Below are positions 59,594 through 63,218 of a stretch of 64,000 bases of DNA, in pieces. The stretch spans positions 186,001 through 250,000 of the forward strand of contig CAJXGN010000001.1 of assembly GCA_913053875.1 (NCBI GenBank), given 5' to 3'. The stretch comes from an uncultured Agromyces sp. Its GTDB lineage: Bacteria; Actinomycetota; Actinomycetes; Actinomycetales; Microbacteriaceae. How positions within the stretch are numbered: the stretch's first letter is position 1; every line of letters begins with the position of its first letter. Under the pieces are notes generated by a model, which was not told the origin of the DNA, ran no database searches, and saw nothing but the letters and a program-made list of their open reading frames with translations. A program made the translations under genes and the position numbers.

Positions 59594-60769
59594 ATGACGG
59601 ATGCCACGGCCAAGGGCACGCCGGCCTGGCTCGGCGCCGTCAACGACCGCGCGGGCCTGTCGGTGCTGCTCGAGCACGGACCGCTGACCCGGCAGCGCAT
59701 CTGCGAGCTGGTCGGCGTCTCCAAGCCCACCGCGTCGCTCATCATGCAGCGCCTCATCACGGGCGGCTTCATCGAGGAGCGCGGCCGCCTCGCACGCTCG
59801 GCCGGCCCGAGCGCCGTGGTGTACGCCGCCCGGCTCGACCGCCGGCTCGGCGTCGCGGTCGACCTCGACGCCGCCGAGCTGCGGGCGCGCGTCGTGGACG
59901 CCGCCGGCACGGACCACCCCGTCGTGCGCCGTGCCCTGCCCGCGGACCCCGGAGCCCGCGACGCGGTCGCCGAGCTCCGGGACGCGATCGACGAGGCGTG
60001 CGCGGCGGCCGGCGCGGACGCGGCCTCGGTGCGGACCGTGTGCCTCGGCATCCCCGGCTACGTCGATCCGGGCCGCGACGGCGAGCTGTTCAGCGAGACG
60101 CTGCCCGGCTGGCCGACCCGCGGGCTGCACGGGGTGCTCGAGGACGCGCTCGGACGCGACGTGCTCATCGAGAACGACGTCGACCTCGCCGCGCTCGCCG
60201 AGCGTGCGCTCGGCGAACGCGAGGACGCGTTCGCCCTGCTCTGGTTCGGCAACGGCGTCGGCGCGGCGTTCGACGCCGCCGGGGAGCTGCACCGCGGCAG
60301 CTTCGGCGGCGCGGGTGAGATCGGCTTCCTGCCGGCGCCCGCGACCGCGGCGGCGATCGACCCCGGGGCCGGCACCCTGCAGGACCTCGTCGGCGCGCGC
60401 GCCGTGGCGACGCTCGCCTCCCGCCACGGCCTCGCACCCGGCACGGAACCGCTCGCCGGGCTCGACGACTCCCCCGCGCGCGACGCGATCCTCGCCGAGC
60501 TGGCCGACCGCGTGGCGCTCGCGGCGCTGCCGGTGCTCGCAGTGCTCGACCCGGCGGCGCTCGTGCTCGCCGGGCCCACGGCGGCGGCCGGCGGCGACGC
60601 GCTGGCCGCGGCCGTGCAGGAGCGCGTCCGCGCCACGAGCCGTTGGTATCCCGAGGTGACGGCGAGCGCGGTCGGCGACGCGCCCGTGCTCGCGGGTGCC
60701 TCGGTGCTCGCGCAGCGTCGCGTGCGGCGTGCCCTGCTCGACGAGATCGCGGCGGTCGGCGACGACTGA
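59594..60769 (+). CDS. ROK-family transcriptional regulator
   Basis: A 391-residue protein: an N-terminal winged helix-turn-helix (LLEHGPLTRQRICELVGVSK then TASLIMQRL) followed by a ROK sugar-kinase-like domain (VCLGIPGYVDP, LIENDVDLAALAERALGE, WFGNGVGAAFDAAGEL). The CXCGXXGC zinc motif of true ROK kinases is absent: after GGAGEIGFLPAP comes a Cys-free stretch. It is therefore most likely a sugar-responsive repressor of the NagC/XylR type. No sugar transport or catabolic gene is next to it in the window, so the ligand is unknown. Confidence 0.9.
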   Translation: MTDATAKGTPAWLGAVNDRAGLSVLLEHGPLTRQRICELVGVSKPTASLIMQRLITGGFIEERGRLARSAGPSAVVYAARLDRRLGVAVDLDAAELRARVVDAAGTDHPVVRRALPADPGARDAVAELRDAIDEACAAAGADAASVRTVCLGIPGYVDPGRDGELFSETLPGWPTRGLHGVLEDALGRDVLIENDVDLAALAERALGEREDAFALLWFGNGVGAAFDAAGELHRGSFGGAGEIGFLPAPATAAAIDPGAGTLQDLVGARAVATLASRHGLAPGTEPLAGLDDSPARDAILAELADRVALAALPVLAVLDPAALVLAGPTAAAGGDALAAAVQERVRATSRWYPEVTASAVGDAPVLAGASVLAQRRVRRALLDEIAAVGDD

Positions 60770-60803
60770 ACCCGGCACGGTGGACGCTGCGAACGGCCGT
60801 GCC

Positions 60804-60809
60804 TAGACT
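60804..60809 (+). promoter_or_regulatory. -10-like hexamer (TAGACT) before the leader ORF and arginase-family gene
   Basis: TAGACT would start a transcript near 60816, carrying the AGGAGGG ribosome site at 60826-60832 and the leader ORF at 60841. Confidence 0.4.
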
Positions 60810-60840
60810 CGGCTCAGACGACTGCAGGAGGGTGGCGACG

Positions 60841-60891
60841 ATGTCCCGAGAGCGATCGGCACCGGTGCCGGCACCGGTGCGGACGCGGTAG
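60841..60891 (+). CDS. Short leader peptide MSRERSAPVPAPVRTR
   Basis: A 16-codon ORF with an ideal ribosome site (AGGAGGG, 8 bases before ATG) and a TAG stop 6 bases before the GTG of the arginase-family gene, which itself has only a weak site. Four of 16 residues are Arg, two of them at codons 14 and 16 next to the stop. Codons 7-13 lie in two tandem copies of the palindrome GCACCGGTGC (60859-60868, 60871-60880) that can fold as a hairpin. This looks like a regulatory or coupling leader. It may alternatively be chance; no protein homologue is known to me. Confidence 0.45.
   Translation: MSRERSAPVPAPVRTR
60857..60880 (+). repeat. Tandem 10-bp palindromes inside the leader ORF
   Basis: GCACCGGTGC occurs at 60859-60868 and 60871-60880, each self-complementary, with CG between. 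The copies can pair with each other as one stem of about 9 bp, or each be a protein-binding half. They end 18 bases before the arginase-family start. Confidence 0.6.
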
Positions 60892-60897
60892 GCGCAC

Positions 60898-61731
60898 GTG
60901 CCCGCGACCTTCCTGGTGGTGCCCGTCTGGCAGGGCTCGAACAGCGCCCGTGCGCTGCAGCTCGTCGACGGCGCGGAGGCGATCCGGGGCGACCTGCCCG
61001 CGTCCGCGACCCGCACGATCGAGGTGCCGCCGGGGGCCGGCGACGCCCTCGGCAGCGGCGTCAAGCGACTCACCGCGGTGCGCACGGTGCGCGAGCGCAT
61101 CGAGCGCGAGCTGCGCGAGGTCGCCGGCCCGGCGATCGTCGTCGGCGGCGACTGCGGCGCGAGCCTCGGCGCCGTCGCGCACGCCGCCCGGGTGCACGGT
61201 CCGCGCCTCGGGATGCTCTGGCTCGACGCCCACGCCGACCTGCACACGCCGGACACCTCCCCATCGGGCGCGTTCGGCGGCATGGCGCTCGGCGCCGTGC
61301 TCGGTCACGGCGCCGACGGACTCGCCCTGGACGAGGGGCGGGCGGTGCCGGCGGCGAACGTCGTGCTGGGCGGCGCGCGCGACCTCGACGACGCGGAGGC
61401 GGAGCTGCTCGAGGCATCCGACGTCACCGTCGTCGACGTCGACGGGCTCGCCCGCGTCGAGCACGTGCTCGACGCGTTCGCCCGCGCGGGCGTCGAACAG
61501 GTCTACGTGCACATCGACCTCGACGTGCTCGACCCGGCAACGTTCGCGGGCGTGGCCGACGCGGTGCCGTTCGGCGCGTCGCCCGCCGACGTGGCGGACC
61601 TGCTGCGCGCGGTGCTCGCCCGCCACGGGCTCGCGGGCGCGACCATCGCGGGCTTCGCGCCCGCCGACGCCGTGACGGCGGGCGACGACCTGCCGACGAT
61701 CCTGCGCCTCATCGGCGCGCTCACGTCCTGA
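60898..61731 (+). CDS. Arginase/agmatinase/formiminoglutamase-family hydrolase
   Basis: A 277-residue ureohydrolase-family protein. Metal motifs are WLDAHADLHT and HIDLDVLDP, both intact. The first motif, usually GGDHS, reads VVGGDCGASLG, so one Mn-binding His is Cys. Length suits a bacterial arginase or a related guanidino hydrolase, and the substrate cannot be fixed. Start GTG 60898 has a poor ribosome site (AGG), and the leader ORF stop lies 6 bases upstream, which suggests reinitiation. A flavoprotein gene follows 41 bases later. Confidence 0.83.
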   Translation: MPATFLVVPVWQGSNSARALQLVDGAEAIRGDLPASATRTIEVPPGAGDALGSGVKRLTAVRTVRERIERELREVAGPAIVVGGDCGASLGAVAHAARVHGPRLGMLWLDAHADLHTPDTSPSGAFGGMALGAVLGHGADGLALDEGRAVPAANVVLGGARDLDDAEAELLEASDVTVVDVDGLARVEHVLDAFARAGVEQVYVHIDLDVLDPATFAGVADAVPFGASPADVADLLRAVLARHGLAGATIAGFAPADAVTAGDDLPTILRLIGALTS

Positions 61732-61772: not shown

Positions 61773-63218
61773 ATGGAGACCACGACCACCGACGTCATCG
61801 TGATCGGCGCGGGCGCCGTCGGCGAGAACGTCGTCGACCGCGTGATCGCGGGAGGCCTCGAGGCGATCGTCGTCGAGCACGAGCTCGTCGGCGGGGAGTG
61901 CTCGTACTGGGCGTGCGAGCCCTCGAAGACGCTGCTGCGCTCGGGCGCGGCGCTGCGGGCCGCGCAGCGCGTGCCCGGTGCGGCCGAGGCCGTCACCGGC
62001 CCGCTCGATGCGGACGCCGTGCTCGCCCGGCGCAACGCGCGCGTGGGCGACTGGGACGACTCCGGCCAGGTGCGCTGGCTCGAGGGCGTCGGCGCCACGC
62101 TCGTGCGCGGCCACGCCCGCCTCGACGGCGAGCGCCGTGTGCGGGTGGCCGGCGCCGACGGCGAGGAGCGCCTGCTCGAGGCCCGGCATGCGGTGGTCGT
62201 CGCCACGGGGTCGGCGCCGAAGCTGCCCGACATCGACGGCCTCGCGCTGGTGCGACCGTGGACGAGCCGCGAGGCCACCAGCGCCCAGCAGGTGCCGGGG
62301 CGACTCGCGATCATCGGCGGCGGCGTCGTCGGCTGCGAGATGGCCACCGCATGGGCGTCGCTCGGCTCGGAGGTCACCCTGCTCTCGCGCAGCGGCCTGC
62401 TGTCGAAGTTCGAGCCGTTCGCGGGCGATGCGGTGACCGCCGGCATCCGCTCGCTCCGGGTCGACGTGCGCACCGGCTGCACGCCCACCGCGGTGCACCG
62501 CGACGCCGACGACCGGGTCGTGCTCGCCCTGCCGGACGGCGAGGAGCTGGTGGCCGACGAGGTGCTCGTCGCGACCGGTCGCCGGGCGCGGGTCGAGGAC
62601 GTCGGGCTCGAGACCGTCGGTCTCGACACCGAGGGCTGGATCGAGGTCGACGACACCCTGCGCGTGCGCGCCGGCGGGCTCGACTGGCTGTACGCCGCGG
62701 GCGACGTGACGGGCCGCGCGCTGCTCACCCACCAGGGCAAGTACCAGGCGCGGGCGGCGGGCGACGCGATCGCGGCCCGCGCTGCCGGCGCCGAGGTCGA
62801 CGACGCCGCCTGGGGCGCGCACGTCGCCACGGCCGACCACGCCGCGGTGCCGCAGGTCGCGTTCACCGAGCCCGAGGCCGCCACGGTCGGCCTCACCGCC
62901 GCCGACGCGGAGCAGCGGGGCATCCGCACCCGTGTCGTCGAGTACGACCTGGGTTGGGTGGCCGGCGCCACCGACCGCGCCGACGGCTACGAGGGCCGCG
63001 CGAACCTCGTCGTCGACGAGGACCGTCGCGTCGTCGTCGGGGCGACCTTCGTCGGGCAGGACGTCGCCGAGCTCCTGCACGCCGCGACGATCGCCGTCGT
63101 CGGCGAGGTGCCGATCGACCGGCTCTGGCACGCCGTGCCGTCGTTCCCCACGCTCAGCGAGGTGTGGCTGCGACTGCTCGAGGCCTACGGCCGCCCGGGC
63201 CACGAGGGCGACGCATGA
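61773..63218 (+). CDS. FAD-dependent pyridine nucleotide-disulfide oxidoreductase
   Basis: A 481-residue flavoprotein of the dihydrolipoamide dehydrogenase/mercuric reductase group. FAD motif: VIVIGAGAVGENVVDRV; redox disulfide: GGECSYWACEPSKTLLR (CX4C); NAD(P) motif: LAIIGGGVVGCEMATAWASL; second FAD motif: LYAAGDVTGRALLTHQGKY. The dimer domain ends with AVPSFPTLSEVWLRLLE, including the region of the catalytic His-Glu pair of the family (here AVPSFPTLSE). There is no lipoyl or heavy-metal domain, so the partner is unknown. GGGAGGAG precedes the ATG. The next gene overlaps by 4 bases. Confidence 0.9.
   Translation: METTTTDVIVIGAGAVGENVVDRVIAGGLEAIVVEHELVGGECSYWACEPSKTLLRSGAALRAAQRVPGAAEAVTGPLDADAVLARRNARVGDWDDSGQVRWLEGVGATLVRGHARLDGERRVRVAGADGEERLLEARHAVVVATGSAPKLPDIDGLALVRPWTSREATSAQQVPGRLAIIGGGVVGCEMATAWASLGSEVTLLSRSGLLSKFEPFAGDAVTAGIRSLRVDVRTGCTPTAVHRDADDRVVLALPDGEELVADEVLVATGRRARVEDVGLETVGLDTEGWIEVDDTLRVRAGGLDWLYAAGDVTGRALLTHQGKYQARAAGDAIAARAAGAEVDDAAWGAHVATADHAAVPQVAFTEPEAATVGLTAADAEQRGIRTRVVEYDLGWVAGATDRADGYEGRANLVVDEDRRVVVGATFVGQDVAELLHAATIAVVGEVPIDRLWHAVPSFPTLSEVWLRLLEAYGRPGHEGDA

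Follow-up and report, generated by a model that had tools for sequence, protein, structure and literature searches.

How is an arginase-family gene of an uncultured Agromyces sp. translated when it lacks a good Shine-Dalgarno (SD) sequence and begins 6 nt after the stop codon of a short open reading frame (ORF)? The original prediction had placed a TAGACT box, an AGGAGGG ribosome site, a 16-codon ORF, two GCACCGGTGC palindromes and a gene start with a weak ribosome site close together at this locus, and each of these elements was found again in its place (Table 1). The two palindromes were the only exact copies of GCACCGGTGC in the window, that is, in the whole 64-kb stretch of DNA analysed. 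The leader ORF and the arginase-family gene were in the same frame, separated by the TAG and two codons. The possibility that a protein with an N-terminal extension is split by a nonsense mutation or a sequencing error was considered and rejected, since the TAG was present in all four genomes found to carry the leader and the relatives begin exactly at the GTG position, the GTG being aligned with their ATG (MPATF). Neither an intrinsic terminator nor a known riboswitch was found: the leader showed no terminator-like site, and the Rfam search of 60700-61050 (E up to 1) was empty. A generic sigma-70 scan called no promoter at TGGACG/TAGACT; the GGTGGAC and TAGACT of the putative promoter were invariant in the four leader-bearing genomes.

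Table 1. Features of the leader region and of the neighbouring genes (positions in the window).
Feature	Position	Strand	Remarks
ROK-family gene, directly upstream	59594-60769	+	PF00480 E 3.3e-22; N-terminal winged HTH PF13412 E 4.3e-5
Putative promoter TGGACG - 17 nt - TAGACT	60781-60809	+	Read from sequence; TAGACT at 60804-60809
Leader-ORF Shine-Dalgarno AGGAGGG	60826-60832	+	Read from sequence
Leader ORF	60841-60891	+	16 codons, MSRERSAPVPAPVRTR, plus TAG; ATG at 60841, TAG at 60889-60891; putative as a translated ORF
First GCACCGGTGC palindrome	60859-60868	+	Read from sequence; not conserved
Second GCACCGGTGC palindrome	60871-60880	+	Invariant in 4/4 leader-bearing genomes
23-nt invariant stretch GCACCGGTGCGGACGCGGTAGGC	60871-60893	+	Second palindrome, last Arg codons and stop; 4/4
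Arginase-family gene	60898-61731	+	PF00491 E 3.1e-29; GTG start; no good SD (by eye); GGDC metal-site variant
Early arginase codons 4-6, ACCTTCCTG	60907-60915	+	Predicted to pair with the leader SD in 4/4
Pyridine-nucleotide disulphide oxidoreductase, downstream	61773-63218	+	PF07992 E 1.3e-48; possible operon partner

To compare the anatomy of the leader with chance, the 128 nt preceding the gene were dinucleotide-shuffled 5000 times. An SD-led upstream ORF (uORF) of 8-40 codons, ending between -20 and +10 nt of the gene start, was obtained in 73 of the 5000 shuffles, at least one exact palindrome in 6 and two palindromes in none. The leader anatomy exceeds chance, and conservation is stronger evidence for it than the shuffles.

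The arginase-family gene was detected in 58 of the 60 genomes that made up our genus sample, with no match at E up to 1e-40 in G455 and G026. Searching the same 60 genomes with the leader DNA (E up to 0.001) gave matches in 13. In four of them (G000, G005, G015 and G023), the match was located at the arginase-family gene and covered 106 or more of 111 bases; the nine others were short, lay around the palindromes and were located away from the gene. The sequence upstream of the gene was read in 57 of the 58 gene-bearing genomes, a fragment without a start (L129) being excluded, and the leader was present in 4 and absent in 53. Thus, the short ORF expected upstream of orthologues was conserved in four genomes and was missing from 54 of the 58 that carry the gene, its absence having been established in 53 by reading the upstream sequence and surveyed in all 60 genomes by DNA search. 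Lack of conservation upstream of orthologues had been named as grounds for refutation, and the outcome on this point was mixed. In the genome to which the window belongs, 22 further matches were obtained at E up to 1, each of them short and weak. A draw of 398 genomes from the family, which included nine other members of the genus and in which G005, G015 and G023 were not represented, returned the window itself and one 32-nt match (E up to 1e-6, at most two candidates scored per genome). A wider leader family elsewhere was rejected, as the own-genome, genus and family searches gave short matches beyond the four.

Among the four leaders, the length, start, stop and frame of the ORF, the 6-nt gap between its stop and the gene start, and the 57-nt distance from its ATG to the gene start were identical, with no indel. 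The corresponding peptides were MSRERSAPVPAPVRTR in G000 and G005, MSRVRARAVSAPVRTR in G023 and MSRMRSGPVPAPVRTR in G015, and an SD-like purine run preceded every ATG (AGGAGGG, AGGAGGG, GGGAAGG and GGGGAGGG). Forty-four of the 57 leader columns were invariant, as were 31 of the 38 columns from TAGACT to the ATG (six of these being the anchor TAGACT itself), 25 of the 45 just upstream of TAGACT and 19 of the 51 in the spacer between the arginase-family and oxidoreductase genes. In the arginase-family gene, 583/831 columns and 45/105 four-fold sites were invariant. Taking columns as independent, the invariance of the leader departed from the four-fold rate with a binomial probability of 1.4e-7; set against the whole-gene invariance of 0.70, it was unremarkable (P 0.15). 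Since the leaders of two of the four genomes share 98% identity, the independent evidence amounts to about three lineages.

The conservation was unevenly distributed along the leader. Its invariant run of 23 nt, third codon positions included, was longer than any among the 831 gene columns, where the maximum was 20. The first palindrome site diverged, reading GCTCCGGTGC in G005, GGACCGGTGC in G015 and CGTGCGGTGT in G023. The two palindromes are therefore present here, but their tandem arrangement is not kept in the relatives, and the tandem was rejected as a functional unit because the second copy alone is invariant. Five of the 16 codons changed amino acid, and the variable columns were spread 5/2/4 by codon position, which leaves the peptide without a coding signature. 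This pattern indicates that the frame, the signals and the 3' element have been kept, and that the middle of the peptide has not.

Within the arginase-family gene, G000 and G005 were 0.67 identical at gene positions 481-540 and 0.80 identical at 541-600 (61378-61497 of the window), with 0.90-1.00 in the other 60-nt bins. At positions 481-540, G005 was nearer to G015 (0.92). The divergence over positions 481-600 looks like recombination.

Most of the genus has another signal in front of this gene. In 49 of the 53 leader-free members (loci among L005-L135), an [ACG]ATACT box was located 6-9 nt before the ATG, and the remaining loci, L027, L029, L116 and L122, had neither the leader nor the box. 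A -10 box at such a short distance from the start codon usually marks a leaderless transcript. Judging by the position of this -10-like box, the gene looks leaderless in these 49 members and hence in most of the genus. The start-proximal box was absent from the leader-bearing gene of the window. As for other genera, a similar box was seen by eye in several loci, uncounted, and Microbacterium loci were often arranged otherwise.

The gene of the window has no good SD and no start-proximal -10 box, and an SD-led ORF stops 6 nt before it, which makes coupling the economical reading. We consider it probable that the leader is a lineage-specific, translated uORF driving the arginase-family gene by translational coupling, chiefly through termination and reinitiation. 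Transcription from TAGACT would produce a short 5' leader; ribosomes would load at AGGAGGG and translate the 16 codons, opening the internal hairpin on the way; after termination at TAG they would reinitiate at the GTG, 6 nt further on. In all four genomes, the leader ORF is served by a ribosome site of its own and the gap from its stop to the gene start is +6 nt, inside the span of about -4 to +40 nt expected of coupled uORFs. Coupling is described as peaking at gaps of -4 to +3 nt and as persisting, at lower efficiency, up to about +40 nt (PMC12548453, in excerpt), so the leader falls outside the optimum. An internal SD is dispensable in some gene pairs, and its removal cut reinitiation substantially in four of five E. 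coli pairs (PMC6728339, in excerpt). In Mycobacterium tuberculosis, the SD-less ppe2 requires its uORF, mainly by termination-reinitiation, with a tight stop-start overlap being needed (PMC11260477, in excerpt). Reinitiation set by the leader was already part of the original prediction, and an SD-led ORF that ends 6 nt before a weak-SD start, with a stable hairpin predicted inside it in all four genomes, suits this part.

RNA folding predicted a hairpin within the leader of -20.3 (G000), -16.1 (G005), -19.4 (G023) and -16.2 (G015) kcal/mol; both palindromes contribute to it in G000, and in G023 it consists of the second one only, extended. The folding z-scores over 120 nt were -3.00 for G000, -3.26 for G023, -2.41 for G005 and -0.23 for G015. 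Sequence conservation was too high for a covariation test to be decisive, one of 38 consensus pairs showing a double change. The leader SD was predicted in all four genomes to pair with ACCTTCCT of arginase codons 4-6: the predicted probability of a free SD was 0.56-0.72 when 12 nt of the gene were included and fell to 0.01-0.02 when 18 nt were. Once these codons have been transcribed, the uORF SD would thus be paired, and loading would favour nascent or already translated mRNA. When the first gene codons were recoded synonymously, the fractions at or below the real value were 0.060, 0.023, 0.150 and 0.173; these values are low, not exceptional, and SD sequestration goes only weakly beyond the synonymous controls. 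With the leader removed, the predicted probability that the gene start codon is unpaired was 0.37, 0.22, 0.00 and 0.56. The start codon would be mostly paired even without the leader, so opening of the hairpin alone would not free it, and the folding models do not favour a simple unmasking of the gene start.

The neighbourhood of the leader brings in another possibility. With up to 1.5 kb compared on each side, the upstream ROK-family gene was matched in the four leader-bearing loci and in none of the 51 others; since it is limited to 4/55 loci, the leader goes with a different upstream neighbourhood. An oxidoreductase homologue was found beyond the arginase match in 45 of the 55 loci (up to 1.5 kb compared). 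The ROK-family protein could regulate the operon. Because the strongest conservation is the 23 nt over the second palindrome and the stop, with no codon-position signature, the main rival to coupling is an element acting at the nucleotide level. This could be an RNA hairpin with an effect on initiation or on the stability of the mRNA, or else a DNA operator, which the neighbouring ROK-family protein perhaps recognises; the short ORF would then be a by-product or just serve to keep the hairpin open. Invariance of that stretch at third positions as well, the lack of codon-position bias, a stable predicted hairpin in 4/4 and the restriction of the ROK gene to these four of 55 loci are all in keeping with such an element. 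Taken alone, however, it leaves the joint conservation of ATG, TAG, length and SD unexplained; measured from the guessed transcription start, the second palindrome would be about 55 nt downstream, an unusual place for an operator; the genome itself offers just the short, weak matches mentioned above besides the region; and the Rfam search was blank. We regard this explanation as rather unlikely and retain the coupled uORF as the working model.

A separate question is whether the coupled uORF could respond to arginine, to which the identity of the enzyme is relevant. The protein belongs to PF00491, matching the family profile and keeping the metal-site motifs DAHxD and DLDVxDP. GGDC was invariant in 18 of 18 aligned relatives, at a place where the arginase 2ef4 has GGDH, and the protein scored 88.9 bits with the arginase model TIGR01229 (rocF), whose cut-off is 227.6. 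The enzyme is not a confirmed arginase and probably belongs to the ureohydrolases. The best named relatives were from Microbacterium and Frigoribacterium (records near the window's own genome were possibly left out), which makes the Microbacteriaceae the probable family of the genome. Among the alignments listed, chain 6ksy shared GGDC and the PQWQG start with the enzyme. Chains of the DcsB type (N-omega-hydroxy-L-arginine amidinohydrolase, an enzyme with a Cys ligand; 6lug, which we take to be DcsB) matched by profile at E 1.7e-29. The idea that DcsB is the closest relative with GGDC was rejected, as the arginase chains 2ef4 and 2eiv ranked first in the profile search.

An arginine or Arg-tRNA attenuator, in which translation of the arginase-family gene depends on how ribosomes advance over the Arg codons, had been put forward for this leader. 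Arg residues 3, 5, 14 and 16 were kept in all four genomes with the same codons (CGA, CGA, CGG and CGG), and CGA accounts for 7.4% of Arg codons in 37 ORFs of the window picked by base composition; these kept positions, two of them with the less used CGA, are the best remaining hint for arginine. Four Arg in 15 codons had a P of 0.033 against gene codon usage (Arg 8.5%), and a lowering of a catabolic enzyme at low arginine would be a sensible direction of control. Against this, when the leader's own bases were shuffled, 4909 of 16627 stop-free sequences (about 30%) had at least four Arg, the Arg codons are scattered with no run, and two of the four lie in the stretch that is invariant at every base. 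No terminator-like site accompanies them, and the enzyme has GGDC in place of GGDH and lies far below the arginase cut-off. A 2005 comparative study reported no conserved RNA structure upstream of the arginine operons of the Actinobacteria it included (PMC1262725, in excerpt), and no arginine-sensing leader for a bacterial arginase-family gene was among the literature matches listed, which covered few subscription papers. The proposed link to arginine was thus unsupported: the Arg density is that of the leader's base composition, the first palindrome is unconserved and the enzyme falls below the cut-off. We judge such an attenuator improbable, arginine control of the gene being unproven and weakly motivated.

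The same Arg residues form R-x-R at codons 3-5 and 14-16, at both places in 4/4 (x being E, E, V and M in the first). Both match the +X+ context at which ketolides arrest the ribosome (PMC8298421, in excerpt), and the leader could on this basis be a sensor of drugs or ribosome stress, with the two motifs as arrest sites for ketolides or macrolides. However, the arginase-family gene and the oxidoreductase are not recognised as resistance genes. The motif itself is short, with its second copy falling inside the invariant stretch, and we give this idea very little credence. A broader form, in which the gene, after a switch in one group from the leaderless expression seen as typical of the genus, would be gated by ribosome progress or arrest in an SD-led uORF with two conserved R-x-R motifs, whether through charged Arg-tRNA or exit-tunnel ligands, also seems unlikely.

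Overall, the locus carries a conserved, lineage-specific leader that most likely acts as a coupled uORF. If it is translated, it provides a natural experiment in which the same gene is apparently leaderless in most of the genus and uORF-coupled in one group, allowing two initiation modes to be compared on orthologues, and it would add an arginase-family case to the actinobacterial genes controlled by uORFs. If it is just an RNA or DNA element, it would be an ordinary lineage-specific regulatory region.

Several known systems resemble this arrangement in part. The SpeFL leader of speF in enterobacteria acts by ornithine-dependent nascent-chain arrest; likened by description, it shares with our locus a leader ORF before a gene of arginine/ornithine breakdown. 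In mycobacteria, polycysteine-encoding leaderless short ORFs located upstream reportedly attenuate an operon (Canestrari, in 2020, as cited in PMC9031893). Going by the title of that work, those ORFs are leaderless, whereas the leader described here has an SD and no codon run. The trp, ilv, leu and cys leader peptides of Actinobacteria are also short ORFs, placed ahead of amino-acid genes and in some cases with RNA structure; in the LEU element, codons of the leader are predicted to base-pair with the SD of leuA (PMC1262725, in excerpt). Those leaders contain repeats or runs of the sensed codon, whereas here Arg is scattered at the density of the base composition, and the excerpted text of the same study reports no leader peptide for arginine. 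The macrolide/ketolide-arrest leader ermDL has R-x-R in a short leader in common with ours; unlike at ermDL, the genes downstream here include no recognised resistance gene, and the motif is known from sequence alone (PMC8298421, in excerpt). In the uPPE2-ppe2 pair of M. tuberculosis, the uORF and the gene overlap by 4 nt (AUGA), out of frame and with a B12 riboswitch, compared with a gap of +6 nt, a common frame and no Rfam match here, and ppe2 expression needs its uORF (PMC11260477, in excerpt), whereas the Agromyces leader has been read in DNA only. What both have in common is a high-GC actinobacterial host and an SD-led short ORF that immediately precedes a gene with no SD of its own.
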